NCBI GenBank assembly: GCA_029552985.1
Contig: JAKPDB010000030.1
Location: 1-42,895, forward strand
Source: a bacterium
Lineage (GTDB): Bacteria; Ratteibacteria; UBA8468; B48-G9; DTJG01
Direction of reading: 5' to 3'
Length of the DNA: 42,895 nt
The notes below the pieces were generated by a model. That model had not been told where the DNA came from. It did no database searches and saw only the letters and a list, made by a program, of their open reading frames with translations. Below are positions 1,384-27,955 of this stretch, piece by piece (within the stretch, counting starts at the first letter, position 1; every line of letters starts with the position of its first letter). The translations under genes were made by a program, and so were the position numbers.

Positions 1384-1405
1384 ATTCATTCCTTTTATTG
1401 AACAA

Positions 1406-1690
1406 TATTTTGCTGAAATCCATTGAGTATTTTTCTGTTTTCTTTGCTTTTCCCTGTTTTTTTTCACTTCCACCAGGAAAGACAGAAGCATTATGAACAA
1501 TTAGCGAAGGCGCAGAAACAAAACAAGTAGGAAAGCAGCAGCGTTCTGCCATATCAATGGCAGTTGACTGTCCGAAGCCAGCAGAGTGCAAAGCGCTTAC
1601 GTTGCTGGCAAGTTTCAACTGCGGCAGATTCCCGCGTAGTTTTGTCTGCGCCGTAGAGTGTGTGAATAATGCTTTTGTCTTTCCGTCTCC
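1406..1690 (-). repeat. Dispersed ~285-bp repeat, copy A
   Basis: Read on the minus strand, this segment matches 27551-27841 of the plus strand along its whole length. My hand alignment shows seven substitutions and indels of 4, 1 and 1 nt. It begins at the base after the ferritin stop codon and ends about 20 bp before the 3-hydroxybutyryl-CoA dehydrogenase start. It contains two perfect 7-bp inverted repeats: CTGCCAT/ATGGCAG with a 4-nt loop (1546-1563), and GCCAGCA/TGCTGGC (1577-1583 with 1603-1609). A short reading frame crosses it, but the 1-nt indels between copies change frame, so I treat it as noncoding. No transposase, terminal inverted repeat or clear target duplication was seen. Confidence 0.9.
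1546..1563. other. Perfect hairpin inside repeat copy A
   Basis: CTGCCAT, then four bases, then ATGGCAG form a perfect 7-bp stem. The same hairpin is unchanged at 27683-27700 in copy B. It could be an RNA structure or a protein-binding palindrome; the sequence alone does not decide. Confidence 0.6.
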
Positions 1691-2179
1691 TCATCCTTCT
1701 CTTTTCCCCAGCTCCCTGTCAAGCATTACAATTGCAGGTCCCTGCTCTTTTATCATTTTCAGTGTTTCAAGAATCTGCGAGGCATTTTTCTCTTCTTCAA
1801 CCTGTTCATTCACAAACCATTGAAGCATAACCATAGAAGGATGATCACCTGCCTTTTGAGCAAGGTTGACGAGGTTATTTATCATTGCTGTCACCTTTTT
1901 CTCATGCTCAAGGGTTTTTTCGAATATGTCAGTCACAGAAGAAAAATCAGCAGGTGGCTGGTCAATGGCAAGAAGTTTTATTTCTGCGCCAACATCAACC
2001 ATAAATTCAAAAAATTTCATTGCGTGGCTTACTTCTTCCTTTGCCTGAACTTTTAACCAGTGGGCAATCCCTGGCAGGTTTTTGCTTTCGCAATACGCTG
2101 CCATACTCAGATAAAGATAAGCAGAATACAATTCATTTCTTATCTGCTCATTCATTGCCTTATGCAAATTCTTTTCCAT
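1691..2179 (-). CDS. ftn: Ferritin
   Basis: Non-haem ferritin of 162 residues, forming a 24-mer cage that oxidises Fe(II) and stores Fe(III) in the cytoplasm. The four-helix bundle carries the ferroxidase ligands: Glu16 in NELYSAYLYL, Glu49 and His52 in AKEEVSHAM, the Glu in LEHEKKVT, and the Gln in VNEQVEEE, matching the bacterial FtnA pattern. AAAGGAGG lies just before the ATG, so the start is secure. It lies 12 bp after the phosphoglycerate mutase gene on the same strand. Its stop codon abuts repeat copy A, beyond which is an unrelated CoA-metabolism gene. A second ferritin-family gene sits next to the other repeat copy. Confidence 0.93.
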   Translation of the reverse strand: MEKNLHKAMNEQIRNELYSAYLYLSMAAYCESKNLPGIAHWLKVQAKEEVSHAMKFFEFMVDVGAEIKLLAIDQPPADFSSVTDIFEKTLEHEKKVTAMINNLVNLAQKAGDHPSMVMLQWFVNEQVEEEKNASQILETLKMIKEQGPAIVMLDRELGKREG

Positions 2180-2191
2180 TTTCCTCCTTTG

Positions 2192-3406
2192 TTATGCTCC
2201 AAATTTGTCAAATTTTAAGGCATTCGCGAGTAAAATATACATCACATTTATTGCCGGAATGGTTCCAAGCATGCCTTTTGCGCACGCCCTTTCTGTAAAT
2301 GTGTCAACATCGTCTGAAATAGCATTTTTTGAAACAATTGCCAGTGGCACAGGATGCCAGGAATGTCCTTTCAAAACACTCGGAGTTGAATGGTCTCCTG
2401 TTAAACATACCACTTCAAATTTTAGATGCTTAATTTTTGCAATTTTTTCGTCAAACTCTTCTATCGCTGCAACCTTTTTTTCAAAATTTCCATCTTCTCC
2501 TGAACTATCGGTTTTTTTGTAGTGGAGATAAAAGAAATCGTATTCGTTGTAAAGGTCGTTAAGCGCCTTTATTTCATCATCAATACTTTCAAGTCCCCTG
2601 ATAACATCCATCCCCACAAGTTTTGCAAGCCCTTTGTACATAGGATAACTTGCAATACATGCTGGTTTCAAAAGGTATCTCTGCTGGAATGGTTCTATCT
2701 CAGGAATACCAGAAAATCCTCTCAATAGAATGGTTTTTGCTCTGGTATCTACATCAGCCAGTATTTGTTCAACCCTTGCAATAAACTCGTTCAGCACTTC
2801 TGCAGTAAATTTTGCCTGGTCATTTAAGGCAGTTATTCTCTTGATAGCAAGGCCTTCTTTTTGTGGGTCATTTTCTGTAACATCAGGAGACAGATTTTCT
2901 CCTCTCAACAGAATTGCAAGCCGGTGTTCTTTTACTGTTTGAATAATAATTTGAACATTTCTTATGCTTTTGATTTTTTCCTGAATTTTATTAACAAGCA
3001 CTCTGTTTTCTTCTGTGGAAATTCTTCCAGCCCTTCTATCAGTAACAATGTGATTTGCGTCTATGGTTGCAAAATTACCCCTGATGGCAAGGTCGTTCTT
3101 CTCCATTTCCATCCCTATTCCCAGAACTTCAAGCACCCCCCTGCCAATCTGATGCTCAATAGGGTCATATCCAAAAAGAGATAGATGAGCAGGGCCACTG
3201 CCTGGGGTAATACCATATAGCACAGGGATCGACAATCCACACATACCTGATTTTGCTAATGCATCAAGATTGGGCTTTTTTGCTGTTTCAAGTTCTGTAA
3301 GACCGGTTTCTGGATGAGGAAGTCCACCAAGGCCATCCATCACAAGCAGAAGAATCTTATTTTCATTTTTCTTAATAACGTTGTTCAGTATTTTTTCAAA
3401 TTCCAT
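2192..3406 (-). CDS. apgM: 2,3-bisphosphoglycerate-independent phosphoglycerate mutase, archaeal type
   Basis: Interconverts 3- and 2-phosphoglycerate in glycolysis and gluconeogenesis, with two metal ions and a phosphoserine intermediate. The 404-residue protein belongs to the archaeal-type (ApgM) branch of the alkaline phosphatase superfamily. It is shorter than the ~510-residue GpmI and shows VMDGLGG near residue 22, GLTELETAKKPNLDALA, and GITPGSGPAHLSLFGYDP, in which Ser70 is the expected phospho-acceptor. C-terminal metal ligands appear in GDHSTPSVLKGHSWHPVP. I choose the ATG at 3406 because CAGGAG precedes it by 7 nt and homology starts soon after; the longer frame to 3472 would add 22 unsupported residues. 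The gene diverges from rsmI and heads the ferritin transcription unit. Confidence 0.92.
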   Translation of the reverse strand: MEFEKILNNVIKKNENKILLLVMDGLGGLPHPETGLTELETAKKPNLDALAKSGMCGLSIPVLYGITPGSGPAHLSLFGYDPIEHQIGRGVLEVLGIGMEMEKNDLAIRGNFATIDANHIVTDRRAGRISTEENRVLVNKIQEKIKSIRNVQIIIQTVKEHRLAILLRGENLSPDVTENDPQKEGLAIKRITALNDQAKFTAEVLNEFIARVEQILADVDTRAKTILLRGFSGIPEIEPFQQRYLLKPACIASYPMYKGLAKLVGMDVIRGLESIDDEIKALNDLYNEYDFFYLHYKKTDSSGEDGNFEKKVAAIEEFDEKIAKIKHLKFEVVCLTGDHSTPSVLKGHSWHPVPLAIVSKNAISDDVDTFTERACAKGMLGTIPAINVMYILLANALKFDKFGA

Positions 3407-3476
3407 GGTTGAACTCCTGAAGGATTGATAAATTGTTGTTTTTAGGGTACTATAAATATGTGGAAATGTCAAAATT

Positions 3477-3505
3477 TTGGGCTCTTGCTCTTGTTTGTAT
3501 TTAAT
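3477..3505 (+). promoter_or_regulatory. Possible rsmI promoter
   Basis: TTGGGC (3477-3482) and TTTAAT (3500-3505) are 17 bp apart in the 120-bp gap between the divergent apgM and rsmI genes. The hexamers are only partial matches and the predicted start would fall almost in the ribosome binding site, so this is weak. It is still the only plausible promoter I see upstream of the 24-kb plus-strand gene run. Confidence 0.25.
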
Positions 3506-3526
3506 TGTGAATAAGGAATTTTAATC

Positions 3527-4195
3527 ATGCTTTTTATAGTGGCAACTCCCATAGGAAATCTTGAAGACATTACTTTCAGGGCATTGAATGTTTTGAGAAC
3601 TGTTGATTTTGTTGTTTCAGAAGATACCAGGGAAACAAGAAAATTACTTAATTATTTTCAGATTCAAAAACCATTGATCAGTTATTACAGAGGGTGTGAA
3701 AAAAGCAGGTCTCAACACATTATGAAATTATTAAGTGGGGGCAAGAGTATTGCGCTTGTGTGTGACAGGGGAACGCCAGGCATTTCAGACCCTGCCTACT
3801 ACATCGTAAGAAGATGCCTGGATGAAGGAATCAAGGTTGTGCCTGTACCAGGTCCTTCTGCCTTAATGGCTGGGCTTTCTGTTTCCGGAGAACCTCTGGA
3901 TGCTTTTTCTTTTTATGGATTTTTGCCAAGAAAGAAAAATAGAAAGATTGAATTTTTCAAGAAAATTGGAGAAAAACAAGAAACCATTGTGTTTTTTGAG
4001 TCTGTTCACAGGTTTATGGAAACAATGGAGGTTCTTAATCAACTATTTCCAGAAAGGCGACTTGTTGTGTGCAGGGAACTGACAAAAAAATTTGAGGAAA
4101 TTGTTGCTGGTACTGTAACCCAAATGTACAATAAATTTAAGCAAACTACAGTAAAAGGTGAATTTGTTCTCATTCTTGGAGGAAAACAATGTTGA
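3527..4195 (+). CDS. rsmI: 16S rRNA 2'-O-ribose C1402 methyltransferase
   Basis: SAM-dependent methyltransferase that modifies C1402 in the decoding centre of 16S rRNA. The 222-residue protein has the tetrapyrrole-methylase fold with the family's hallmark motifs: ATPIGNLEDITFRAL at the N-terminus, SEDTRETRKLL, VCDRGTPGISDP, PVPGPSALMAGLSVSGEP, YGFLPRKK and FFESVHRF. It is shorter than the roughly 280-residue E. coli protein and ends at the catalytic domain, lacking the C-terminal extension; many bacterial RsmI proteins do the same. The ATG is preceded by AAGGA. It is the first gene of a long plus-strand run and overlaps the next gene by 7 bp. Confidence 0.94.
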   Translation: MLFIVATPIGNLEDITFRALNVLRTVDFVVSEDTRETRKLLNYFQIQKPLISYYRGCEKSRSQHIMKLLSGGKSIALVCDRGTPGISDPAYYIVRRCLDEGIKVVPVPGPSALMAGLSVSGEPLDAFSFYGFLPRKKNRKIEFFKKIGEKQETIVFFESVHRFMETMEVLNQLFPERRLVVCRELTKKFEEIVAGTVTQMYNKFKQTTVKGEFVLILGGKQC

Positions 4196-4896
4196 TGAAA
4201 TGGTTCAGGAAAAAAAGAAACTTTAGAATGGTTATGATTGTGACCGCAGCGCTGGTAATACCTGGATTTGTAATATGGGGTGTAAGCATTTCAGGCACTG
4301 ATAAGAGGTATCTGGTGGCAACAGTAAACAACCAACCCATTTATCAGCACGAGTTTTATAGAACTGTTGAAGAAATACGACAACAATACAGAGACATTTT
4401 GAAAGATAATTATTCAAAATTCATCAATGAGACAGAACTTGAAAAAATGGTTCTCAACAGGATGATACAGGAGAAATTGCTTGAACAGCTTTATCGCAAG
4501 CACCACATTAGAGTAAGAGATTCAGAAATCCTGGACGTGATAAAATCTGAACCATCATTCAAAAATGAAAAAGGGCAATTTGATGAAGCAAAATTCAGGG
4601 CATATTTTTCACGTATTTCTCCTGAAAAAACAAAAGAGATTGAAAATCAGATAAGAAACAGCATTAAATATCAAAAACTTAAGCAGGAAGTCCTTTCAGA
4701 AACAACAATTGTGGTGTCAGACCAGGAAGTAAAATCCCTGATGGGCGGCAGTACAGATCAGAATAAATTCCAGGATATTAAGCGATATGTTCAGGCACAG
4801 AGGGAAGACCAGTATTTTCAACAATGGCTTGAAAAACAGAAAAACAATGCAAAGATCGAGGTATTTTTGAACCTTGATAAAAAGACAAACTCATAA
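4189..4896 (+). CDS. SurA-N/PpiD-like membrane-anchored chaperone-like protein
   Basis: The 235-residue protein has one N-terminal transmembrane segment (about residues 14-34, MVMIVTAALVIPGFVIWGV) preceded by many Lys and Arg, so most of it should face the periplasm. The next region, VATVNNQPIYQHEFYRTVEE, followed by long charged helices, is typical of the SurA N-terminal chaperone domain seen in PpiD and SurA. No parvulin-type prolyl isomerase domain follows; the protein ends in charged helix, so it may be chaperone-only. The start at 4189 is chosen because GGAGG lies 6 nt upstream; ATG 4195 is an alternative. It overlaps rsmI by 7 bp and is followed 2 bp later by the histidine kinase gene. 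Fold assignment is moderate; substrate unknown. Confidence 0.65.
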   Translation: MLMKWFRKKRNFRMVMIVTAALVIPGFVIWGVSISGTDKRYLVATVNNQPIYQHEFYRTVEEIRQQYRDILKDNYSKFINETELEKMVLNRMIQEKLLEQLYRKHHIRVRDSEILDVIKSEPSFKNEKGQFDEAKFRAYFSRISPEKTKEIENQIRNSIKYQKLKQEVLSETTIVVSDQEVKSLMGGSTDQNKFQDIKRYVQAQREDQYFQQWLEKQKNNAKIEVFLNLDKKTNS

Positions 4897-4898
4897 AA

Positions 4899-6305
4899 AT
4901 GGAACCAAAAGATACTCTTCAATACGAGATATATCTTCTTGACGCAATATGCAGGGGACTGCAGGCAACATTAAATGTTGACAAAATCATCCATATTGTC
5001 CTGACAGGCCTTACAGCAGGCGCTTCACTTGGTTTCAGCAGAGCAGCAATATTTTTCATCAATGAAAGCGGTATACTGCATGGTGGAAGGGGTATAGGTC
5101 CTTACGACCAGAATGAGGCAGAAAAAATATGGGCTGACTTAACAAGTTCTGAAGCAACGCTTGAGGAAATGTTTGAAAACAGCCATAGAAAAACACTTGA
5201 AAGCCAGAGATTTCCTGTGGAAATTAAATCTGTCAGGTATGAACTTGCAAAACTTCCAGTCAACAGTCCTTTAAGAAAGGTGATTTATGACAATGAAATC
5301 ATTTTGCTGAAAGGCGATGAAAGGTTTCTTGTTCCTGAGGAATTTCACTGGTTTGTAAGACATGCAACGCAGGTGGTAGTTGCTCCAATTACCATATCAG
5401 GAAAAATTTCAGCTGTGGTTTTTGCTGATAATGCCTTTCATTATAAAGACATCACTCCTGGCATGATATCCTTTCTTTCTATTGTACTCAATCATACGGG
5501 TCTTGCCCTGAGCAATGCGTTTGCTTATGAATCCACCAGACATAATCTTGAACAGGTCCAACAATTAAATGAAAAACTCAGGCAGGTACAGGAAGAACTT
5601 TTGGCATGCGAAAGATTTGCTGCGGCAGGAAGAATTTCCACATATCTTGCACATGAAATCAGAAATCCCCTTGCAACCATTGGAGGATTTGCCAGACAGA
5701 TTCTTGAAATAGCCAGAGAAAAACACACTGACCCAAGGATTGCAAGAAATGCAAAGATTGTTGTCAATGAGGTGAGAAGACTTGAACTGGTGCTGAATAA
5801 TCTGTTAAGATTTTCTTTCAAACAGCCAGCAAAAAAGCAAAACATTCATCTTCTCAGTTTTCTTAATGAACTGATGGAAGTTCTGTCAATCAGCATTGAA
5901 GACAATGGAATTCATCTTAATCTTGACATTCCACAGCATATCCATATTTACGCAGACAGCGTGCAGTTGAGTGAGGTTTTTTATAATCTTATCCATAATG
6001 CCATTGAAAGTATGAAACATGGTGATTACCTGACAATAAGTGCTGGCGAAGAAAACGGGTATGTCTGGGTGGAAATTGCTGATACAGGTTATGGAATACC
6101 ACCTGATGTGCTTGAACAGTTATTCAAGCCATTTTTCACCACAAAATCTCATGGAATAGGACTCGGACTTCATTTGGTGAAAACAATTATAGAGGAAAAC
6201 CATGGTGGAAAAATTGAGGTGGATTCCAGAGTAAATCGCGGAACAAAGATCCGCTTTACAATTCCCAAAAAGGAGGTGGGAAGTGAAAAAAATACTGCTG
6301 ATTGA
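4899..6305 (+). CDS. Cytoplasmic GAF-domain sensor histidine kinase
   Basis: A 468-residue two-component sensor with no transmembrane segment. Residues about 15-210 look like a GAF sensor domain. A short coiled coil (VQQLNEKLRQVQEELL) leads to the dimerisation/phosphoacceptor domain with His252 in LAHEIRNPLATIGGF. The ATPase domain then shows an N box (NLIHNAIESM, Asn367), a G1 box (ADTGYGIP), an F box (FKPFFTTK) and a G2 box (GIGLGLHLVK), so all catalytic elements are present. The next gene, a receiver-only regulator, overlaps its 3' end and is probably translationally coupled. That regulator in turn overlaps glgC, suggesting the pair senses carbon or energy status to control storage metabolism, although the signal cannot be read from sequence. 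The start has no strong Shine-Dalgarno site. Confidence 0.9.
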   Translation: MEPKDTLQYEIYLLDAICRGLQATLNVDKIIHIVLTGLTAGASLGFSRAAIFFINESGILHGGRGIGPYDQNEAEKIWADLTSSEATLEEMFENSHRKTLESQRFPVEIKSVRYELAKLPVNSPLRKVIYDNEIILLKGDERFLVPEEFHWFVRHATQVVVAPITISGKISAVVFADNAFHYKDITPGMISFLSIVLNHTGLALSNAFAYESTRHNLEQVQQLNEKLRQVQEELLACERFAAAGRISTYLAHEIRNPLATIGGFARQILEIAREKHTDPRIARNAKIVVNEVRRLELVLNNLLRFSFKQPAKKQNIHLLSFLNELMEVLSISIEDNGIHLNLDIPQHIHIYADSVQLSEVFYNLIHNAIESMKHGDYLTISAGEENGYVWVEIADTGYGIPPDVLEQLFKPFFTTKSHGIGLGLHLVKTIIEENHGGKIEVDSRVNRGTKIRFTIPKKEVGSEKNTAD

Positions 6306-6639
6306 GGATGAAACGAATCAGAGAATACTCTGCACAGAAACCCTTGAAAAAGAAGGATATCAGGTCATCGCTGCATCAAATGGTGAAGATGGATTGAATC
6401 TTTTAAAAAATAATGATGTTAACCTTGTTATTGTTGATATCAGAATGCCAAAAATGAGCGGACTTGAAACCCTTGCCAACATTCTCGGACAGAGAAAAAA
6501 TCTTCCTGTGATCATTTACACTTCGTATCCGCAATATAAAACAGATTTTATGAGCTGGGCTGCAGATGCTTATATCATCAAAAGTTCAACGGGTTTAAGT
6601 GAACTTGTTGCCAAGGTTAAGGAGTTAATCGGTGCCTGA
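6283..6639 (+). CDS. Receiver-only response regulator
   Basis: A 118-residue CheY-like receiver domain with no output domain. Acidic residues Glu8-Asp9 sit at the first loop, the phospho-acceptor Asp52 is in IVDIRMPKMSG, the switch Thr is in IIYTSYP, and the conserved Lys is in YIIKSS. It starts with GTG inside the histidine kinase gene, with AGGAGGTG just upstream, and its stop overlaps the glgC start by 8 bp. Cognate pairing with the kinase is therefore very likely. With no DNA-binding domain it must act by protein contact, either as a single-domain regulator or a relay to another partner not in this window. Close coupling to glgC is suggestive but does not prove that glycogen enzymes are its target. 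Confidence 0.92.
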   Translation: MKKILLIEDETNQRILCTETLEKEGYQVIAASNGEDGLNLLKNNDVNLVIVDIRMPKMSGLETLANILGQRKNLPVIIYTSYPQYKTDFMSWAADAYIIKSSTGLSELVAKVKELIGA

Positions 6640-7849
6640 AAAAGAAAAAATACTTACCCTGATTCTTGCTGGCGGTAAGGGTGAAAGGTTGTATCCCCTT
6701 ACAAGGGACAGGGCAAAACCATCGGTACCTTTTGGAGGTATCTATCGTATCATAGATTTCACTTTGAGTAATGCCATCAATTCAGGACTCAGAAAAATTT
6801 ATGTTCTCATACAATACAAGTCCTATTCCCTTCAACGACATATCAGGGAGGGATGGAATATTTTCAGTAGAGAACTTGGAGAATTTATTGATGTAATTCC
6901 AGCACAGATGAGAATTGGAACCGACTGGTATCTTGGAACAGCGGATTCTGTATTTCAGAACATCTATTTTCTCAATCAGGAAAAACCCGATCTTGTCCTT
7001 ATTCTTTCAGGAGATCATATTTACAAGATGGATTATCGGAGGATGATTGAATTTCACAAACAAAAAAACGCTGACCTGACAATAAGTGTATTTGATGTCC
7101 CTGTACAAGAAGCAAAAAGATTCGGGGTACTGGAAGTGAATGAAAGACAGGAAGTAATCAGTTTTCAGGAAAAACCAGAAAATCCTGTTCATTCTCCTGA
7201 TAATCCTGATATGTGTCTGATATCCATGGGTATTTACCTGTTCAATACTGAAACACTTGTTCGTCGCATTATTGAGGATGCGAAAAAACCGGATAGCAGC
7301 CATGATTTTGGAAAGGATGTAATACCCGCAATGATTGGAAAGGATCGAGTATTTGCGTTTCCTTTCACTGATGAAAACCGAAAAGAAACAAAATACTGGA
7401 AGGATATCGGAACCATAGAGGCATACTATGAAGCAAACATGGACCTGGTGAGCGTGGAGCCAGTGTTGAATCTTTATGATACTGAATGGCCCATTCGCAC
7501 GTTTCAGGAACAACTTCCTCCTGTGAAGACCGTGTTTTCTCTTGGCGAAAGAACAGGTATGGTTCTTGACTCAATCATTGGAGGAGGATGCATCATCAGC
7601 GGTGGAAAGGTTTACAGGAGTGTATTATCTCCATGGGTCAGAATCAACAGTTATGCAGAAGTAAGCGAATCAATACTTCTGGACAGGGTAAATGTGGGAA
7701 GATACTGTAAAATCAGGAGAACCATCATTGATAAAAATGTTGTGGTTCCACCTGGTACTATTATTGGATATGATGCCTCTGAAGATAAAAAACGATTTGT
7801 CGTAAGTGAAACAGGAATTGTCGTGGTTCCAAAGGATTATCAGTGGTAA
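6632..7849 (+). CDS. glgC: Glucose-1-phosphate adenylyltransferase
   Basis: Makes ADP-glucose from ATP and glucose-1-phosphate, the committed step of bacterial glycogen synthesis. The 405-residue protein has the nucleotidyltransferase signature LAGGKGERLYPLT with AKPSVPFGG, then YLGTADSVFQN, SGDHIYKMDYRRM, the substrate loop FQEKPENP and a C-terminal left-handed beta-helix. All are typical of GlgC. GTG at 6632 is the likely start; AAGGAG is upstream and it overlaps the receiver gene. It opens a glycogen cluster that continues with a GalT-like gene, glgA, a GH57 enzyme, an M14-like gene and glgB. Confidence 0.95.
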   Translation: MPEKEKILTLILAGGKGERLYPLTRDRAKPSVPFGGIYRIIDFTLSNAINSGLRKIYVLIQYKSYSLQRHIREGWNIFSRELGEFIDVIPAQMRIGTDWYLGTADSVFQNIYFLNQEKPDLVLILSGDHIYKMDYRRMIEFHKQKNADLTISVFDVPVQEAKRFGVLEVNERQEVISFQEKPENPVHSPDNPDMCLISMGIYLFNTETLVRRIIEDAKKPDSSHDFGKDVIPAMIGKDRVFAFPFTDENRKETKYWKDIGTIEAYYEANMDLVSVEPVLNLYDTEWPIRTFQEQLPPVKTVFSLGERTGMVLDSIIGGGCIISGGKVYRSVLSPWVRINSYAEVSESILLDRVNVGRYCKIRRTIIDKNVVVPPGTIIGYDASEDKKRFVVSETGIVVVPKDYQW

Positions 7850-7865
7850 TTAAAAAGGGGAAAAA

Positions 7866-8894
7866 ATGCCAGAATTGAGAAAAGATCCAGTTATAGGCAG
7901 ATGGGTAATCATCGCCACAGAAAGAAAGCTCAGACCATCAGATTATGCAGAAATGTGTCCAACTGTGGAAGAAGAACAAGCGCCATTCTGCCCATTTTGC
8001 CCCGGGAATGAAACAAAAACCCCACCTGAGATATTCGCAATAAGGGAAAACAATTCTCAGCCAAATACACCTGGATGGCTGGTAAGGGTTGTCCCGAATA
8101 AATACCCGGCTTTGAAGATTGAAGGTAATCTTGACAAAAAGGGCGTGGGTATTTTTGATAAAATGAACGGAATCGGTGCCCATGAAGTGATTATTGAAAC
8201 CTCTCAACATAATCAACAGATGCACGATTTTGACATAGCACATCTTGAAAAAGTCATTCACACCTATCAAATTCGCAGCCTGGATTTGAAAAACGATCCA
8301 AGGTTGAAATATAGCATGATATTCAAAAATTATGGCAAAGAAGCAGGCGCTTCTCTTCATCACTCCCACACCCAATTAATTGCAACGCCTGTTACACCGA
8401 AAAGAGTAAAAGAGGAATTGAAAGGAACTCAGTGGTATTACGATTATAAAGAACGATGCATTTTCTGCGACATTATAGAGGATGAAATCAGTCGTGGAGA
8501 AAGGGTTGTGGCAATAAATAAAGATTTTATTACAATTGTGCCATATGCATCAAGATTTCCGTTTGAACTGTGGGTTGTTCCATTAAAACACAGAGCTGAT
8601 TTTGACTCTATCAGTGATTTAGAAAGACCGAATCTCGCAGAAATGCTTGGTTTGGTTTTGAAAAAATTAATGAAGGGTTTATGTAATCCGCCATATAATT
8701 TCATATTTCATACGGCACCAAATAGATTTGCCCATCCCGGCTACTGGCAGACCATAGATAAGGATTATCACTGGCACATAGAGATTATGCCGCGGTTGAC
8801 AAGACCCGGTGGCTTTGAATGGGGCACAGGTTTTTACATAAATCCCACGCCTCCTGAAGAAGCAGCACAGTTTCTCAGAGACCTTGTGGTCTAA
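7866..8894 (+). CDS. galT: GalT-family nucleotidyltransferase, possibly ADP-glucose phosphorylase
   Basis: A 342-residue member of the histidine-triad branch that includes galactose-1-phosphate uridylyltransferase. Zinc-type CPFC (about residues 39-42) and CIFC motifs are present. The active site reads H166-S-H168-T-Q170, followed by the C-terminal motif DYHWHIEIMPR. E. coli GalT has HPHGQ at this position, whereas the plant homologue At5g18200, characterised as an adenylyltransferase/ADP-glucose phosphorylase, has an HSHxQ form. Placement exactly between glgC and glgA, with no galactokinase or epimerase nearby, makes a role on ADP-glucose attractive. Nevertheless many bacterial GalT enzymes share this architecture, so the specificity is open. 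A clear purine-rich ribosome site precedes the ATG. Confidence 0.85.
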   Translation: MPELRKDPVIGRWVIIATERKLRPSDYAEMCPTVEEEQAPFCPFCPGNETKTPPEIFAIRENNSQPNTPGWLVRVVPNKYPALKIEGNLDKKGVGIFDKMNGIGAHEVIIETSQHNQQMHDFDIAHLEKVIHTYQIRSLDLKNDPRLKYSMIFKNYGKEAGASLHHSHTQLIATPVTPKRVKEELKGTQWYYDYKERCIFCDIIEDEISRGERVVAINKDFITIVPYASRFPFELWVVPLKHRADFDSISDLERPNLAEMLGLVLKKLMKGLCNPPYNFIFHTAPNRFAHPGYWQTIDKDYHWHIEIMPRLTRPGGFEWGTGFYINPTPPEEAAQFLRDLVV

Positions 8895-8918
8895 CATTAA
8901 TACCCGAAAGGAGTAAGA

Positions 8919-12313: not shown

Positions 12314-12323
12314 GAGGAAACCA

Positions 12324-15618: not shown

Positions 15619-15620
15619 TA

Positions 15621-16889: not shown

Positions 16890-16899
16890 GGAGGCTGAA

Positions 16900-17844: not shown

Positions 17845-17859
17845 CACCAGGGAAGCACA

Positions 17860-20643
17860 ATGAAAAAAATCATTTTTTTCTTTGTTCTGACAGGTGTATG
17901 TTTTGCTGGTATCAGTGTAGATTGGTCAGTGCCATCTATCCCAGACACTCCTTCTGTTATTCCGTTTTCGAACATCACAGTCGATGGTGTATTGACAGAT
18001 CAAGAATGGGCATCAGGACTCTGTTTTCCCATAAGGTCTAAGTATCACATTTCAAACTCAAAAAGGTCGTGGGCTGGTCCAGAAGATGCAGGAATGGAAT
18101 TTTATACCGCATGGAATGAAAAAGGGCTTTTTTTCGGAGCAATCGTTGCAGATAATGAAGTCATCAATGACAGAGTTTCAGAATTAGCGTACCAGCAGGA
18201 CTGTATTGAAATTTTTGTTGATGGAAGGGTATCGTCCTTTATGAAATCTCCCTATACAAGAGGATGTTATCAGATTCTTGTTAAACCCCCTGTTAAAAAT
18301 CAGATGCCCGTTGCAGAAGTGTTGAGCCAATATAAAATTTCAGGCATGCAAATTGCAGGTGTAAGAACAAAAACTGGATACAGCATTGAACTATTTGTTC
18401 CGTGGTCAGCATTTCCTGAAATTCAAAAAGACGGGTCTAACACTCACATTGGAATTCAGGCAATGCTTGATGATTACGATAGTCAGGACCTCGATAAGGT
18501 TCAGCCATTGAGTTTGAGTTATCTTGGAAAGAAACAACTATACAGAAGCCCCCAGAATTTTATCCACTGCATATGCGGGGAAAAAACAAGCCCAGTGTTT
18601 TCTATTGAGTGTTTGCCGATTGTTATTGAAAGACAACACATACCGGTTGCGGTTGAAAGTTTTTCAATGGCAGGCAATATTGATTCAATAAAAATCAGGA
18701 TTGAAAATTCGCAAGGAAAAGTCCTTGCTGAAAAAAAGCCAAAACTTATGAAATACAGTACCCCGTGGACAAAAGCAATAAGGGCAGTCGCAAGTTTTGA
18801 CGTAGAAAAACTTCAGGACGATGTTTTTGTGATTTCTGCTGTAGCAAGTAAAGAAAAGATGGAATTTATCTGTAAAAAAACTGTAATTTATCTCGGCAAC
18901 ATTGTAGACGAAATTCTTTCAAAAATCAAAAAGGCAGACATTCAAAAACTTTCTCAATCAGATCCTTTTAGGGCTCATGGGTATCTTGCAGTTGGTTCAT
19001 GCTATGAAAAAATCAAGTATGCAGTGGAGTCATCCGATGTAGAAAAATTGAAATACGCTGTAAGGGAAACTGCTGCGAGAATTGATATTTTGAGCAAAAA
19101 AGGGCTAAAAAACACAAATTCACTTTTTGACTTGCTCGTTCTTGCTGAAAATCCAGAATCCCAGATTGTCATTGAGTATGTTTCGCCTGAGATTGCGAAT
19201 GTGACATTTTACTGGGGTTCTATTCCGCTTGTTACTGTGAATGTAAAAAAGTTTGACAACCAGAGTCTGGCAAAAGAAGCAGCAAGAGAGAAACCTGCTG
19301 GATTTGTGGACTTGCTTGAAGATGTAAATCCTGCAGGACCTGTTGTCATCGCAGGACTTCCAGGACGCGTTTCTTCCTGGTCGTACATGTTTTTTTACTT
19401 CAACATGGAAAGATTTGACCCGGAAAAACAAGTACTTGTTGTGAACCCACAAACAAAAACCATGTACGTTGTTGACATTGGAAAAATTGATTATGTGGAT
19501 GCTGAAGCAGCAACAATTGATGATAGCGCCAGTGAAACGATCAAAAAACAGGTAGACAAATACATACGCAGTAAAAAAATACGCCTTCTTCCTGTGGATG
19601 AAGCAATGGAAAAAAATAGCGTACTTATTGCAACAGGCAAAGACATTCCACAGGAAATCAGTAAATTTAAAGCATACCAGGTGTCGATTGTAAAACAATC
19701 CGTCATCAGAATTCCATATCAGGATATGCTTATTTCTGTTTCACATCCATCTCGATGGGTTGCTGAAGAAGCAGCAAAACTTGTGATAGCAGGAAAACCA
19801 GTGTCCAGTCAGGATGTTGAAAAAATCAGAAAGACACTTGTCAATGAATTTGCGTTTTCAACAAGATCTTTTGAAAATGTAAAAAGACAGGCATTGATTT
19901 ATTGCGGAGACCTGCATAGCCATTCAACATTTTCTGATGGGAAACATACTCCGTGCGGAATGGCTCTTGAGTCCATGTATTGTTTTATGGATTTTCTTGC
20001 TCTGACTGACCACAATACGATAGAGGGAGCACAAATCGCGTCGAAACTCCTTTCAAAACACGGTTTTGATTACACCTTTATTGTTGGTGAAGAAATCACA
20101 ACAAGGGATTTTCATTTCAATGCCTATCCACTGACAAAAGCAATTCCATGGACTCTTCCTCCAGAACAAATCATTTCTCTTGTCCACCAGCAATCTGCGA
20201 TTGTCCAGTGGAATCATCCTGGCTGGACATATTCAACATGGGAACTACAAAGAATTGACAGTGGTTTGGAGACAGGCCTTGATGCGTGGGAACACATCCC
20301 GTTTCACTATTACCAGTGGAAAAAAAATGATACTCTCCCACCGCTGATTGGAAGCACTGATACCCATGATGGTACATTTTCTAATCCAGAAAGAACAGTG
20401 ATTGTTTCCAGTGGATGTCAGGAAAAAGACATTGTTGAAGCCATCAGAACAGGCAAAACGATTCTTGTTTCACCTTCAAGAGGAAGTGATTTTATGTATG
20501 GTGACAATGCTGTTGTCAGTCAGGCATGGGATATTTTACTTGAACCACAGGAACTGAAAAATATGAAAAAGCAGCACATTATGAACATGTTAAAAAACGC
20601 TGACCTTCCTGGTCTGTTACAGGAAAAGTGTAGCAAAAATTGA
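17860..20643 (+). CDS. Exported CBM9-like and PHP-domain protein
   Basis: A 927-residue protein with an N-terminal Sec signal peptide (about residues 1-18, cleavage after VCFA). Residues about 35-245 resemble the family 9 carbohydrate-binding (DOMON/CBM9-like) fold, including NITVDGVLTDQEWASGL. A middle region of about 430 residues has no family I recognise. The C-terminal quarter is a PHP metallophosphoesterase-like domain: DLHSHSTFSDG with His686 and His688, LTDHNTIEG, GEEITT, WNHPGW and STDTHDG. All expected metal ligands are present, so it should be active, probably in the periplasm or outside the cell. Possible substrates are phosphorylated or charged sugars. No cell-wall anchor is seen. 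It is followed 13 bp later by a Nif3-like gene. Confidence 0.8.
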   Translation: MKKIIFFFVLTGVCFAGISVDWSVPSIPDTPSVIPFSNITVDGVLTDQEWASGLCFPIRSKYHISNSKRSWAGPEDAGMEFYTAWNEKGLFFGAIVADNEVINDRVSELAYQQDCIEIFVDGRVSSFMKSPYTRGCYQILVKPPVKNQMPVAEVLSQYKISGMQIAGVRTKTGYSIELFVPWSAFPEIQKDGSNTHIGIQAMLDDYDSQDLDKVQPLSLSYLGKKQLYRSPQNFIHCICGEKTSPVFSIECLPIVIERQHIPVAVESFSMAGNIDSIKIRIENSQGKVLAEKKPKLMKYSTPWTKAIRAVASFDVEKLQDDVFVISAVASKEKMEFICKKTVIYLGNIVDEILSKIKKADIQKLSQSDPFRAHGYLAVGSCYEKIKYAVESSDVEKLKYAVRETAARIDILSKKGLKNTNSLFDLLVLAENPESQIVIEYVSPEIANVTFYWGSIPLVTVNVKKFDNQSLAKEAAREKPAGFVDLLEDVNPAGPVVIAGLPGRVSSWSYMFFYFNMERFDPEKQVLVVNPQTKTMYVVDIGKIDYVDAEAATIDDSASETIKKQVDKYIRSKKIRLLPVDEAMEKNSVLIATGKDIPQEISKFKAYQVSIVKQSVIRIPYQDMLISVSHPSRWVAEEAAKLVIAGKPVSSQDVEKIRKTLVNEFAFSTRSFENVKRQALIYCGDLHSHSTFSDGKHTPCGMALESMYCFMDFLALTDHNTIEGAQIASKLLSKHGFDYTFIVGEEITTRDFHFNAYPLTKAIPWTLPPEQIISLVHQQSAIVQWNHPGWTYSTWELQRIDSGLETGLDAWEHIPFHYYQWKKNDTLPPLIGSTDTHDGTFSNPERTVIVSSGCQEKDIVEAIRTGKTILVSPSRGSDFMYGDNAVVSQAWDILLEPQELKNMKKQHIMNMLKNADLPGLLQEKCSKN

Positions 20644-20656
20644 AAAAGGGGGATCC

Positions 20657-21415
20657 ATGGAAAAACTTGAACACATCGTGAAATTTCTTGATAGTTTCCT
20701 CAATATCAATCACATTAAAGACGACTCCTGGAATGGTCTTCAATGGGAAGGAACAGAAAGGGTTGAAAAAATCATGTGCACAGTTGATGCTGGCGCAGAT
20801 GTATTCCAGCATGCGGCAAAAAGGAAATCAAATCTTGTTATTGTTCATCATGGAAATTACTGGAAAAACGCCAATCCTTCTTTCGCTGGCGCAAACAAAA
20901 AAAGGATGGAAATACTTTACAGGCATAATATTTCTCTGTATGCCGCGCACCTACCGCTTGATATGCACCCGGAAATTGGTAATAATATTTTGCTTCTCAA
21001 ACTGATAGGCGCAAAAAAATCAACAGGATTTTTCCCATACGACGGACAATTTATCAGTTTCTGCGGGCGATTTACAAAACCAAAAAAACTTGATGACATT
21101 GTCAATAAAATCAATAATTCCCTTGGAATCACATGCAGGGTGCTTCCCTATGGGACTGGCACTGTTAAAACTGTTGCTGTAATCAGTGGTGGTGGTGGTT
21201 ATACAGGATTTAATGAGGCAATAAAGGCAGGGGTTGACCTTTACGTTTCAGGTGATACTATTGAAGTTTTTCATTCTGCAAAGGATTCTGGAATCAATGT
21301 GATATTTGGGGGTCATCATGCAACAGAAACTCTCGGGGTAAAAGAACTGGCAAAAATTCTGTCAAAAAGGTTTGATGTTGAGGCAGAATTTGTTGACATC
21401 CCAACAGGACTTTGA
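20657..21415 (+). CDS. Nif3-like dinuclear metal centre protein
   Basis: A 252-residue member of the NIF3/YbgI/DUF34 family, which forms hexameric toroids with a two-metal site. Conserved features are DSWNGLQWEG near the start, VDAGADVFQHA, IVHHGNYW (metal His pair), YAAHLPLDMHPEIGNN, and the C-terminal SGDTIEVFHSAKDSG with FGGHHATE. Proposed roles include GTP cyclohydrolase-like activity and metal insertion, but none is settled. The sequence AAAGGGGG is upstream of the ATG. It stops one base before the DUF1015 gene begins. Confidence 0.9.
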   Translation: MEKLEHIVKFLDSFLNINHIKDDSWNGLQWEGTERVEKIMCTVDAGADVFQHAAKRKSNLVIVHHGNYWKNANPSFAGANKKRMEILYRHNISLYAAHLPLDMHPEIGNNILLLKLIGAKKSTGFFPYDGQFISFCGRFTKPKKLDDIVNKINNSLGITCRVLPYGTGTVKTVAVISGGGGYTGFNEAIKAGVDLYVSGDTIEVFHSAKDSGINVIFGGHHATETLGVKELAKILSKRFDVEAEFVDIPTGL

Positions 21416-21416
21416 A

Positions 21417-22616
21417 ATGATTTCGCCATTTAAAGGATATAGGTACTCAAAAAAAGCAGGAAATCTTGAACAATTGATCGCGCCACCATATGATGTGATT
21501 GGTCAAAAATATCGCGAAGAACTTATTAATCGTTCACCCTATAACATTGTCCGCCTGACACTTCCAGAATCTTTTGATACTGACTATCACAGAGAAATTG
21601 CACAAATACTTGAAACTTGGTGCAGAGAGAAAATACTCATACAGGACGAAAAAGAATACTTTTACCTTGTAAAGCAAAAGTTTTTGTATAAAGGAGAAAA
21701 ATTTGAAAGAACTGGATTGATAGGTCTTTTTGACCTTCGGGCGTCTGAGCGCGTCATCAAACATGAAGTCATTTTCAACAAATACAGGGATGATAGAATC
21801 AAACTTCTTGAAACAACAAAGTCAAATTTGGAACCAATATTATTGCTTTACGAAGACCAGGAAAATCTCCTTGAAGAGATTGCTTGCTCAATGCCATTTC
21901 AGGAAGAACTATCTTTTGAGGAAACAACAGTTACCTTTGAACCCTGTAGGCCTGAATTATTGATGCCACTGGTGAGCAAAATCCAGGACTCAAAACTTTT
22001 TATTGCTGACGGCCATCACAGATTTCAGGCATCTTATCAATATTTTCAAGCGTGCCCGGATGCTCCACCATTCATCATGGTTTATCTTACCAATTTTCTT
22101 TCAAACTCCCTGCTTGTGCTGCCGACCCACAGAGCATTGAAAAATGTCAATCCATTAGAAAAGATCAATGCCATTGAAGAATTCTTTGAAATCAAGAAAC
22201 ATGTAAATCTCAGCCAAACTCTTTTTTCAATAGAAAACTCTCAATACTGTAGTTTTGGCGTTTATTTCAACAATTCATTTCAAACATGGTCTCTGAAAAA
22301 CATTGAAAAAGTTAAATCATCTCTACCAGAAAATTTTTCTGATACATTGAAATCCCTTGATGTTGTCATTCTTCATTATCTTGTTATTGAAAAAATTTTT
22401 GGCGTAACTGCCAGAGAAAAACTTTACTATGACAGAAATCCAGAAGAAATTATCAATTTTGTCAATCACAACCCCTCAAGCATTGGCTTTTTTATGCAGA
22501 AACCGAATCTACTGAAAATCAGGCAGGTTGCCAGTAGTGGTGAAATACTTCCTCCAAAAACCACTTTCTTCTACCCAAAGGTGCCATCAGGGCTTGTGAT
22601 TGCACGATATGCCTGA
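21417..22616 (+). CDS. DUF1015 family protein
   Basis: A 399-residue DUF1015 member. N-terminal FKGYRY and IAPPYDVIG, the central [16 protein letters not shown], and LPTHRALKN match the family. The HH in ADGHHRF and the Asp suggest a metal- or nucleotide-binding site, as in proteins related to ParB/Srx-like nucleases and kinases, but no activity is known. I use the ATG at 21417, one base after the Nif3-like stop codon; the longer frame would overlap that gene by 44 bp for no gain in conserved sequence. Its end overlaps the mnmG start by 8 bp. It is likely part of a translationally coupled housekeeping series. Confidence 0.87.
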
Positions 22617-24432
22617 AATGGAATTTGAAATTGTTGTCATTGGCGCAGGACACGCTGGAATTGAAGCAACACTTGCCTCATCAAGAATGGGGTTAAATAC
22701 CCTTCTTATCACAGGTAATTTTGGAACAATTGCAAAACCAAGTTGTAATCCTGCTATTGGCGGAGTGGGCAAAGGACAGATTGTAAAAGAAATTGATGCT
22801 CTTGGCGGGCAAATGGCTCTTGCGACAGATAGCGCCGGCATACAATTCAGGATGCTCAACACAGGTAAAGGCACAGCAGTGTGGAGTCCAAGAGCACAGA
22901 TTGACCGGCTCAAATATTCAGATTACATGAAACATGTTCTTTTCCATCAAAAAAACCTGAAATTATTACAGGCACTGGTTGTCAAAATACTGGAGAAAAA
23001 TGGTAAAGTTGACGGTGTCGTGCTTGATTCAGGAGAAAAAATTGAATGCAAGTGTCTGATTCTTTGTCCCGGTACTTTCTTAAATGGCATCATTCATATT
23101 GGGAATCAGTGTTTTCCAGCAGGAAGAATGGGTGAATTTGCATCAAAAGGTATCACCGAATGTTTGAAAGAACTCGGGTTTGATGTGGGTAGATTAAAAA
23201 CAGGAACTCCTCCGAGAATCAGCAAACAATCAATTGATTTCAGTAAGGTAAAAGAGCAGCCAGGGGACAAAACACCAGTGCCATTTTCTTATCGAACGTC
23301 ATCAATCAATAGAAAACAAATTTCCTGTTATCTCACGTCCACAACATCAGAAACAATGAAGATTATCAGAGATAATCTTGATAGAGCTCCTCTATATACA
23401 GGTCAAATTCGTTCCACTGGTCCAAGATATTGCCCATCAATTGAAGTAAAGGTGGTAAGGTTTCCAGACAGAGATACTCATCACATTTTTCTTGAACCAG
23501 AAGGTTATGATAGTGATGAAGTTTATGTCAATGGATTTGCCACCAGTATCCCAGTTGATGTCCAGGAAAAGGCACTGAGAACGATTCCAGGACTGAAACA
23601 GGTGAGAATTTTAAGATACGGGTATGCGATTGAATATGATTTTGTTCCTCCATATCAATTAAAGCCAACACTTGAAACAAAAAACATCACAGGACTTTAT
23701 CTCGCAGGTCAGATCAATGGAACAAGTGGTTATGAAGAAGCAGCAGCCCAGGGAATTATCGCAGGAATCAATGCTGCCTCCTCAATACTTGGAAAAGAAC
23801 CATTAATATTAAAAAGGCACGAGGCATACATTGGGGTACTGATTGACGACATTACGACAAGAGAAATTGCAGAGCCATATAGAATGTTTACTTCCAGGGC
23901 AGAATACAGATTGATTTTAAGGCAGGACAACGCCGATTTCAGATTAATGGACTATGGATTTAAGTATGGACTTATTGACGAAAAAACCTATAAAATCATG
24001 AAAGAAAATAGAAACCTCATAAAGAAATTTTGTGCCATGCTTGAACAGACATATCTATCCAGGTGCAAGGAGAAAACATCTCTTGCAGATTTTTTGCGAA
24101 GACCAGAAAATACTATCTATGATATTTTCCAGTTCTGTAAAGAACTTGAGGATCTTCCAGAGCACGCAAAGGAAGAAATTGAAATAGAAATCAAGTATGC
24201 TGGTTATATCAAAAGAGAACTTGAAATGATTGAAAAAACATCTCTGATGGACAGTGTAAAAATACCTGAAAACATTGATTATTCAAAAATCACAGGCATT
24301 TCAACTGAAGCAAGAGAAAAACTGTCAAAATATCGGCCATTTATTATCGGACAGGCAAAAAGAATTGATGGTGTCAGTCCATCCGACATCACAGCGATAC
24401 TGATCCATCTTAAAAAAGCCAAAAGTTATTAA
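22609..24432 (+). CDS. mnmG: tRNA uridine-5-carboxymethylaminomethyl modification enzyme, FAD subunit
   Basis: With MnmE, this FAD protein installs the cmnm5 group at wobble U34 of several tRNAs. The 607-residue length and sequence are typical: the dinucleotide site [54 protein letters not shown], and the second FAD motif [18 protein letters not shown] helical C-terminal domain ends in ALTR-like [12 protein letters not shown]. The ATG at 22609 is my choice; ATG 22618 (MEFEIVVI) and TTG 22600 are alternatives and no strong Shine-Dalgarno distinguishes them. It overlaps DUF1015 by 8 bp. mnmE is not in the window. Confidence 0.95.
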
Positions 24433-24465
24433 TCAAGTCGTCTTCTGTGATAAAATAAATATTGA

Positions 24466-24835
24466 ATGAAACCAAAATCATTTTTCAAGCGCAACAAGTC
24501 GTTTCGCCAGAGGTTCAACCTTTTTTTTGCTGAATTTAGTACCACTTTCTATCTACTTCCTTTCAATCATCCTTATTTTTGCTCTTGCCTATATTTTCAT
24601 TGCTGGCTTATTTATCATCTTTTCAAGGATAATTCATAAAAAACTTCCTGAAACGCTTTCTCGGTTAGCTCCAGAAATTCTTCCAGAACTTCCTGTGGAC
24701 CCATTTACTGGAAAGGATTTTATTTACAAAAGTCAAAATGATAAAATTTTACTATATAGTGTCGGAGACAATCTCTGTGACGACAGAATCACCAACTTCG
24801 AAAAGAGGCAGGATGACATCGTCTGGAAAAATTAA
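24466..24835 (+). CDS. Small membrane protein with apparent frameshift at a T8 run
   Basis: Reading from ATG 24466 gives a basic peptide, [20 protein letters not shown], that reaches a run of eight T (24521-24528) and then continues in a poor frame. Dropping one T at the run joins it to a long hydrophobic frame ([18 protein letters not shown]), then a soluble C-terminal part with [15 protein letters not shown] and LLYSVGDN. The DPFTGK...YSVG pattern recurs in small secreted or membrane proteins of Planctomycetes-like bacteria. The joined product would be 122 residues: basic tail, one transmembrane helix, outside domain. Either the T-run is miscalled, the gene is slippage-regulated, or it is decaying; a TTG start at 24527 would give an intact shorter form. 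Its end overlaps the CoA-transferase gene. Confidence 0.55.
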
Positions 24836-26390
24836 AAATATCGATGAAGCAATGGGTCTTGTAAAAGATGGAGATACTATCGCAACAGGTGGATTTGTTG
24901 GGAATTGTCATCCTGAAATGCTTTCCTTTTACCTTGAAAAACGGTTTCTCGAAACAGGGCACCCCTGTAATTTGACAGTTGTATACGCTGCAGGTCAGGG
25001 AGATGGAAAGACACGTGGCATAAATCACTTCGCTCATGAAGGAATGGTGAAACGAGTTATTGGTGGGCACTGGAATCTTGTACCAATGATGGGAAAGCTT
25101 GTCATTGAGAACAAAGTTGAAGCATACAATTTCCCTCAGGGAGTTATATCCCATCTTTATCGTGATATTGCTGCAGGAAAACCAGGAACAATCACCCATG
25201 TAGGCCTATACACATTTGTTGATCCGCGATTTGGAGGCGGCAAACTCAACAGCATCACAAAAGAAGATATTGTGAAACTGATTGAAATTGAAGGAAGACA
25301 ATGGCTTTTTTATAAGGCATTTCCAATTAACGTGGCTTTTATCAGGGGAACAACTGCTGATAAAAACGGTAATATCACGATGGAAAAAGAAACAGGTTCT
25401 CTTGAAATGCTTCCAATGGCAATGGCAGCAAAAAATTCTGGGGGCACTGTTATTGCCCAGGTGGAAAGAATTACAGATGATATTTTCAATCCGTATCTTG
25501 TAAAAGTTCCTGGAATTTTTGTTGACGCTATTGTTGTTGCTGAAAAACAATTTCACCAGCAAACATTTGCTGAAGAATATAATCCATCTTATTCTGGTCA
25601 ACAGAGAATCTCTCTTGAAACACTTTTTGGAAAAATGCCGCTTGATGAAAGAAAAATTATATGCAGAAGGGCTGCAATGGAAATTGAATCTGGAGACATT
25701 GTCAATCTTGGAATTGGAATGCCTGAAGGTATTGCTCTTGTTGCAGCGGAAGAGCAAATACTTGATGAAATTACACTTACAGTTGAAGCAGGCGCAGTGG
25801 GCGGAATACCTGCCAGTGGATTAAGTTTTGGAGCAGCGTACAATCCGGTTGCAATCATTGACCAGCCGTACATGTTTGATTTTTATGATGGTGGTGGGCT
25901 TGACATTGCATTTCTTGGACTTGCCCAGGCAGATACTTACGGTAATGTTAATGTCAGTAAGTTTTCTTCCCGAATTGCTGGAGCAGGTGGTTTCATTAAC
26001 ATTACGCAAAACGCAAAAAAAGTTGTTTATTGTGGAAGTTTTACAGCAGGCGGACTGAAAGTTGAAATTACAGATGGTACTCTGAAAATTCTCAGTGAAG
26101 GAATGCATAAAAAATTTTTGAAACAGGTAGAACAAATTACTTTCAGTTCTGAATACGCAATTAAAAAACATCAAAAAGTTCTGTATGTCACAGAAAGGGC
26201 AGTATTCCAACTCGACCAGGCAGGGCTAATACTAATTGAAATTGCTCCAGGAGTTGATATTACCAACGATGTCATTTCAAAAATGGATCTCGTCCCGAAA
26301 ATTTCAGACAAACTCAAAACAATGTCTGACAAAATTTTTAAAAACGAACCTATGGGAATTAAATACACCATCAAAAGGAAAAAATCATGA
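24813..26390 (+). CDS. Fused class I CoA-transferase (acetate/3-ketoacid type)
   Basis: Moves CoA between short-chain acids, for example acetoacetate, acetate, propionate or butyrate. The 525-residue protein fuses both halves of the heterodimeric enzymes, as in YdiF and propionate CoA-transferase. Motifs include [12 protein letters not shown] in the first half, [26 protein letters not shown], and the catalytic glutamate Glu325 in [11 protein letters not shown]. Start: the ATG at 24813 is preceded by GAGG and fits family ends; the longer frame would add 25 residues overlapping the upstream gene. It begins 23 bp inside that frameshifted small gene and overlaps the thiolase gene by 4 bp, so the three are likely translated together. 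Confidence 0.9.
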
Positions 26391-27550
26391 GAAGGGTTTT
26401 TATCATCAGCGCTGCAAGAACACCGATTGGCGATTTCGGCAAATCCTTAAGTAATGTGTCAGCAATTGAACTTGGTTCTATTGTGATTTCTTCTGTAATA
26501 AAAAGGGCAGGTGTACCTAAACAGAAAATTGACCAGGTCATTATGGGCAATGTTTTGCAGGCAGGACTTGGACAGAATCCTGCAAGACAGGCAGCAATCA
26601 AAGCAGGAATTCCTGTTGATATCCCTGCAACGACAATTAACAAAGTTTGCGGTTCTGGATTAAAGGCAGTATCTCTTGCCGCGTGTACCATTATGGCAGG
26701 TCAGGCAGATATTGTTGTTGCTGGCGGAATGGAAAATATGAGTCAGGCTCCCTACATTCTTGAAAAAGCGCGAAGTGGTTATAAATTAGGACATGGCACA
26801 CTCGTTGATAGTTTAATACACGATGGACTGTGGGACATTTACAATAACTATCATATGGGAATTGCTGGAGAAAATCTTGCTGAAAAATTTTCAATACCAA
26901 GAGATGCTCAGGATGAATTTGCGTATCAGTCCCAGCAAAAATGTAAAGATGCAAAGGGAAAAGGGTGGTTTAAGGAAGAAATTACACCTGTGATTCTTAA
27001 AGACACTGTCTTTGAACAGGATGAACATCCAAGGCCAGACACAACGTTTGAAAAACTTTCAAAATTGAAACCAGCATTCAGGGAAAATGGCACAATTACA
27101 CCAGGAAACGCCTCAGGTATTAATGATGGAGCTGCCGCAGTTGTTATCGCGTCTGAAGAGATCGTTGGAAATTTTTCTCTAAAACCAATGGCAGAAATAG
27201 TTTCTTATGGCGAGGCAGGCATTGAACCTGCTTTGATGGGACTTGGACCAGTACCTGCAACAAAAATTGCTCTTGAAAAAGCAGGAGTCTCCCTGGATGA
27301 TATTGATCTGATAGAAATCAATGAAGCATTTGCTGTTCAGGTACTTGCCGTATGCCAGAAGTTAAAGGTTGATATGAACAAACTCAATGTCAATGGTGGA
27401 GCAATTGCACTGGGACATCCCATTGGTGCAAGTGGAACCAGAATACTTGTGACGCTACTATATGAGATGAAAAGAAGAGATGCTCAATATGGATTGTGTA
27501 CACTCTGTGTAGGTGGAGGAGAAGGAGTGGCGATGGTGGTAAGAAGATAG
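26387..27550 (+). CDS. thlA: Acetyl-CoA acetyltransferase (thiolase)
   Basis: Condenses two acetyl-CoA to acetoacetyl-CoA, or the reverse. The 387-residue protein is a standard biosynthetic-type thiolase with Cys88 in [11 protein letters not shown], His344 in [10 protein letters not shown] and Cys374 in [11 protein letters not shown]. It overlaps the CoA-transferase by ATGA. The two form an acetoacetate module that would be completed by the 3-hydroxybutyryl-CoA dehydrogenase found 25 kb away at the other copy of the repeat. The stop codon is directly followed by repeat copy B. Confidence 0.94.
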
Positions 27551-27841
27551 GGAGATGGACGGAAAGACAAAAGCATTATTCACACACTCTACGGTGCAGA
27601 CAAAACTACGCAGGAATCTGCCGCAGTTGAAACTTGCCAGCAACGTAAGCGCTTTTGCACTCTGCTGGCTTCGGACAGTCAACTGCCATTGATATGGCAG
27701 AACGCTGCTGCTTTCCTGTTTGTTTTGTTTCTGCGCCTTCGCTAATTGTTCATAATGCTTCTGTCTTTCCTGATGGAAGTGGAGAAAAACAGGGAAAAGC
27801 AAAGAAAACAGAAAAATACTCAATGGATTTTCAGCAAAATA
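27551..27841 (+). repeat. Dispersed ~290-bp repeat, copy B
   Basis: This is the same sequence as copy A (1406-1690), in inverted orientation in the window, but in the same orientation relative to the flanking genes. It starts at the base after the thiolase stop. Relative to copy A it carries an extra 4 nt near its start and two 1-nt insertions. The hairpins of copy A are conserved at 27636-27669 and 27683-27700. An ORF from 27655 runs through it but its start and frame are not shared with copy A, so I do not call it a gene. Together with the partial copy that follows it fills most of the 405-bp gap before the next CDS. Confidence 0.9.
27683..27700. other. Perfect hairpin inside repeat copy B
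   Basis: CTGCCAT and ATGGCAG separated by TGAT form a perfect 7-bp stem, identical to the hairpin at 1546-1563. A second imperfect structure with 7-bp arms GCCAGCA and TGCTGGC lies just upstream at 27636-27669. Confidence 0.6.
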
Positions 27842-27842
27842 C

Positions 27843-27908
27843 TATTCACACACTCTACGGCGCAGACAAAACTACGCAGGAATCTGCCGCAGTTGAAACT
27901 TGCCAGCA
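27843..27908 (+). repeat. Partial second copy of the repeat
   Basis: These 66 bp repeat 27577-27642 of copy B with one or two mismatches, starting from TATTCACACACTCTACGG, so the unit recurs head-to-tail with a period of 266 bp. It stops at GCCAGCA, the first arm of the internal hairpin, and the sequence then becomes unrelated and AT-rich. Copy A has no such tandem addition. Confidence 0.9.
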
Positions 27909-27917
27909 GTTAAATAA

Positions 27918-27926
27918 TGGTATAAT
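27918..27926 (+). promoter_or_regulatory. Extended -10 promoter of the ferritin-like gene
   Basis: TGG followed by TATAAT is a perfect extended -10 element, 29 bp before the GTG start. A -35-like TTGCCA (27900-27905) lies in the end of the partial repeat with a short 15-bp spacer; the extended -10 would lessen the need for it. A second TATAAT overlaps at 27926-27931. The gene therefore appears to have its own promoter at the repeat edge. Confidence 0.6.
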
Positions 27927-27955
27927 ATAATAGCGAACTAACAAGGAGGGTGAAA

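Follow-up and report, generated by a model that had tools for sequence, protein, structure and literature searches.

A derived 26-kb inversion bounded by copies of a hairpin-forming repeat in an uncultured bacterial lineage

The window analyzed here, the entire 42,895-nt contig C87 of a metagenome-assembled genome (MAG; 178 contigs, 86% complete), carries two nearly identical repeats in inverted orientation. One, copy A, separates a ferritin gene from a 3-hydroxyacyl-CoA dehydrogenase gene, while the other, copy B, stands between a thiolase gene, preceded by a CoA-transferase gene, and a ferritin-like gene. The initial annotation, made from this contig by itself, proposed that inverting the 26 kb between the repeats would rebuild two logical gene pairs, thiolase with dehydrogenase and ferritin with ferritin-like. 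It named homologous recombination between the repeats, a switchable inversion, or an assembly error as the possible cause. The locus raises the question of whether the present order is derived and by which of these routes it arose. Related genomes show both predicted pairs, making this a clean case of a rearrangement predicted from one contig and confirmed by relatives.

Gene order in the window and in related genomes

The gene identities assigned initially are correct. The dehydrogenase (532–1389) and ferritin (1691–2179) genes are encoded on the minus strand, and the CoA-transferase (24738–26390), thiolase (26387–27550), and ferritin-like (27950–28435) genes on the plus strand. The segment from ferritin to thiolase (1691–27550, to which no strand is assigned) lies in the orientation opposite to that in related genomes. 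The ancestral place of ferritin is directly upstream of the ferritin-like gene, and that of thiolase is upstream of the dehydrogenase, which lies 3′ of it. The GC skew switches sign at copy B, from +0.06 in the segment to −0.07 in the right flank; this is compatible with a flip, although gene orientation also shapes skew.

On the ferritin side, the two genes are adjacent on one strand in all six same-genus genomes in which both are placed (G001, G002, G003, G004, G006, and G007). Their order in these genomes is pepck facing the ferritin-like gene, then ferritin and phosphoglycerate mutase, and beyond the latter, where the contig extends, the divergent gene set starting at window position 3527. 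This is exactly the order that flipping the window from 1.7 to 27.6 kb yields, and the ferritin pair that the inversion was predicted to restore is thus the one found in the genus. The gap between the two genes is short and free of the repeat in the five gaps that were read directly, including that of G006. The closest ferritin-like protein (94%) is encoded by G006, whose order is un-inverted; thus, among the genomes seen, only this one carries the inversion.

On the thiolase side, CoA-transferase, thiolase, and dehydrogenase are contiguous in one operon in G011 and G013, which belong to another family of the same order, and the dehydrogenase lies directly 3′ of thiolase in G034. In G001, the contig with thiolase (C64) and that with the dehydrogenase (C68) end in an identical 37 nt and are therefore adjacent. 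The thiolase contig of G004 runs through a first element (E1) and a spacer into the start of a second (E2), while its dehydrogenase contig begins in 42 nt that match the 3′ half of the G004 element at 95%. On the basis of this contig-end match, the two contigs are probably the two sides of one repeat. The predicted pairing of thiolase with dehydrogenase is accordingly observed in G011, G013, G034, and G001, and probably also in G004. In G002, G003, G005, and G007, the dehydrogenase is unlinked to thiolase and located elsewhere, so that independent disruption of the operon has also occurred within the genus and the pair is not universal there. Other species of the genus (L167, L168, L169, and L132–L135) show at least two arrangements in which thiolase and dehydrogenase are split, one with thiolase next to an aldo/keto reductase and another with it next to ETF-like genes.

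The DNA between the junctions can also be followed in relatives. Contig C10 of G001 carries pepck, both ferritin genes, and the genes up to a 927-aa protein in one piece. In G004, a 75-nt overlap between contigs C68 and C122 connects the 927-aa gene with a block of NIF3-like, DUF1015, GidA, CoA-transferase, and thiolase genes. The inverted segment is thus colinear in relatives and, most simply, the entire segment would be ancestral and have been flipped as a unit. The present gene order was also looked for in relatives, since its occurrence there would have spoken against a derived inversion; the nearest relatives all show the un-inverted order. Because that order is found at both junctions, the order in the window is derived and goes back to a single inversion whose breakpoints lie at A and B.

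Repeat copies at the breakpoints and the origin of the inversion

Copy A (1396–1690, minus strand) lies between the ferritin and dehydrogenase genes in the sense direction of both, and copy B (27551–27848, plus strand) begins immediately 3′ of the thiolase stop codon. Each comprises an element E1 and a spacer of ~70 nt, and the two coincide with both breakpoints. BLAST aligns 1399–1687 (minus) with 27558–27848 (plus) at 96% identity over 291 nt (E about 1e-133), and a separate repeat search recovers the same arms. The repeats first reported at 1406–1690 and 27551–27841 are therefore real, inverted, and nearly identical, and their coordinates were good to about 10 nt. Several features had escaped the initial annotation. 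A truncated second element, consisting of the 5′ 66 nt only (27843–27908, plus strand), lies in tandem to B at a spacing of 266 nt, and each copy forms a large imperfect palindrome. Elsewhere in this genome, a third near-identical copy sits at the junction of contigs C45 and C4, and diverged copies occur on C143 and C20. The truncated element also provides a promoter-like TTGCCA-17-TAATAT (27900–27928) ahead of the ferritin-like gene; this is no more than a match to the consensus.

From the derived order and the elements observed at its breakpoints, we infer an insertion step and a homologous crossover. The ancestral order would have been pepck, facing ferritin-like, ferritin, and phosphoglycerate mutase, followed by a 24-kb stretch of genes with CoA-transferase and thiolase at its end, and then the dehydrogenase. 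Between thiolase and dehydrogenase, a dispersed ~210-nt element that forms a hairpin would already have been present with its spacer. A second copy may then have arrived in this lineage, in inverted orientation, between ferritin and ferritin-like, and the two ~290-nt copies, being inverted, would have recombined homologously and thereby flipped the segment. A real derived 26-kb inversion by this route, after spread of the element, is considered likely.

Such an inversion is an ordinary rearrangement of a well-known kind. Precedents include a 1.3-Mb inversion between TRIP1 repeats in E. coli (PMC10888264) and other repeat-mediated inversions (PMC9584773). As in those cases, the segment between inverted copies flips, the breakpoints fall at the repeats, and neighboring genes are re-paired; near-identical inverted repeats are found at the breakpoints here, and relatives retain the un-inverted order at both junctions. 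In contrast to the TRIP1 case, the segment spans 26 kb rather than 1.3 Mb, the host belongs to an uncultured phylum, and the mediator is a short hairpin element.

Of the three causes proposed initially, homologous recombination is favored, assembly error is disfavored by the spacing of the differences between A and B, and the switch gains no positive support. A chimera assembled at a repeat longer than the reads has some initial appeal, as the ~290-nt repeat exceeds short-read length and other contigs (C45 and C4 in this genome, C122 and C134 in G004) break at repeat copies. However, the longest exact run common to A and B is 64 nt, with no shared 65-mer. Within an element copy (end of L010, start of L008), C45 and C4 have exactly 141 terminal nucleotides in common, and this one contig overlap suggests assembly at k = 141. 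An assembler at that setting would need to switch within a run of at most 64 nt, while every word across the repeat contains a distinguishing site. Moreover, collapsed copies would be expected to make contigs end at the repeat, whereas this contig passes through both. A chimera is thus unlikely. No overlap with other contigs was found at the left end of the window. At their 141-nt overlap, C45 and C4 should be joined.

Inverted repeats of such length can recombine repeatedly, and the break between C45 and C4 inside an element copy suggests some population variation at element copies. Both points would suit a switchable inversion with the two orientations kept in the population. Against a balanced mixture, however, the contig is unbroken through A and B, and the nearest relatives all have one order. 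The genes involved are metabolic, rather than surface or defense genes. A nearby recombinase gene, the mark of a phase-variable region, was sought by a Pfam scan, and neither recombinase nor transposase genes are among the predicted window proteins. Given the unbroken contig and the lack of a recombinase in the window, a balanced or programmed switch is not indicated, and its probability is put marginally below even that of a chimera. The window contains no tRNA genes, and a tRNA-associated insertion was therefore dropped.

A different single-event explanation is replicative transposition from the gap between thiolase and dehydrogenase into the gap between ferritin and ferritin-like, which would invert the DNA between and leave inverted copies at both ends in one step. 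It accords with the lack of an element between ferritin and ferritin-like in relatives, and with the spacer tail that is common to A and B but missing from the copy on C4; one event would explain both facts. Over ~232 nt, however, the distance between A and B (8 differences) is no smaller than that of either to the C4 copy (6 and 6). The ends of A and B are also unlike, since B has the 66-nt truncated second element and A does not, inspection by eye shows no target duplication, and the window encodes no transposase. This course is regarded as improbable, if less so than a chimera or a switch. A mosaic analysis for the site of the crossover was uninformative, because A and B are about as far from each other as from the copy on C4.

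Structure and distribution of the element family

Each copy is a ~210-nt imperfect palindrome. The cores of A (1502–1658, minus strand) and B (27587–27744, plus strand) match covariance model R1 with 185.7 and 181.6 bits, respectively, both being members of its training set. Copy B folds with −85 kcal/mol (z = −8.3), while a copy from G006 is weaker (z = −2.4). The consensus of six copies has 51 pairs, 15 of them with compensatory changes. In an alignment of fifty copies from nine genomes, which was fitted to the covariance model and is hence biased towards the structure, 94.6% of the cells are paired and 35 of the 51 pairs show two-sided changes, compared with 37–45% and 8–12 pairs in slid controls.

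The model finds relatives of the element in 9 of 35 genomes of the phylum. It has four matches in this genome and none in G013, although G013 shares its genus with G011, which harbors at least 79 copies (a lower bound, as 85 of 551 candidates were scored). Loci surrounding PEPCK genes, mostly from other phyla and totaling 1.2 Mb, yielded no elements. The G011 copies often form arrays of 2–4 units at ~300-nt spacing (L214–L233 and L270–L289), resembling the 266-nt spacing at B. At all 38 G011 loci examined, the element lies upstream of the longest downstream ORF and in sense with it (binomial p = 7e-12), which makes its function testable. These ORFs often begin about 70, 105, or 145 nt from the element core, and the genes are unrelated, making a metabolite riboswitch unlikely. 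Many G011 elements are separated from the start codon by another small conserved hairpin (GAAAAGACT...AGTCTTTGACAGAACC), possibly part of the same module. In G009, unlike in G011, the genes that the copies face are antisense.

Full elements of this genome and of G004 and G006 begin, in sense orientation, immediately 3′ of a stop codon. Integron attC-like sites were considered because the elements follow stop codons and were dropped, as inspection by eye revealed neither cassette arrays nor attC core sites. A RAYT/Y1 transposase was likewise considered as the mobilizer; Y1_Tnp genes occur in many of these genomes, but none of those reported lies on a contig with an element among the matches listed, a list that for G011 covers part of the matches.

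Relation to known repeats and possible function

Small dispersed palindromic elements include ERIC, Correia/NEMIS, RUP, and RPE (reviewed in PMC2229807). The present family shows the mark of the ERIC/NEMIS-like class, a long stem-loop conserved in multiple intergenic copies, and shares its range of 100–250 nt, the formation of the stem-loop by end-to-end pairing, a patchy and lineage-specific copy number, and partial copies. In contrast to those elements, it is unrelated in sequence, larger, and marked by compensatory changes in the arms between copies, and it occurs in ~300-nt tandem arrays and, in G011, strongly favors the sense orientation relative to the downstream gene. REPINs and RAYT-mobilized REPs (PMC3116915) similarly combine two inverted arms as a hairpin with dispersed intergenic copies; however, the present element is far longer and has no Y1 transposase on its contigs among the matches listed. 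Rfam yields no match in the window at the gathering score and chance-level matches only for copy B at a relaxed E-value, and a literature search found no direct report or description of the repeat. The family thus appears to be undescribed.

The family was an unexpected yield and is of greater interest than the inversion: it is large and strongly covarying, has no Rfam entry, and reaches dozens of copies per genome. We tentatively suggest, at slightly less than even chances, an undescribed structured and covarying family of ~160–220 nt that extends across a small candidate phylum and, in one genome, is arrayed in tandem within the 5′ leaders of numerous unrelated genes. Its members may be RNA-level regulators or mobile elements that move as ssDNA hairpins, incidentally driving inversions that re-pair operons. 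The locus illustrates the way in which operons of uncultured lineages are broken up and joined anew by short dispersed repeats. The element also breaks MAG assemblies and yields spurious ORFs. Pieces of such ORFs, for example KASDK...LLLSLFCCCAFAN (L141:8623–9714 and L009:7103–7573), are translations of the element that could be annotated as hypothetical proteins.
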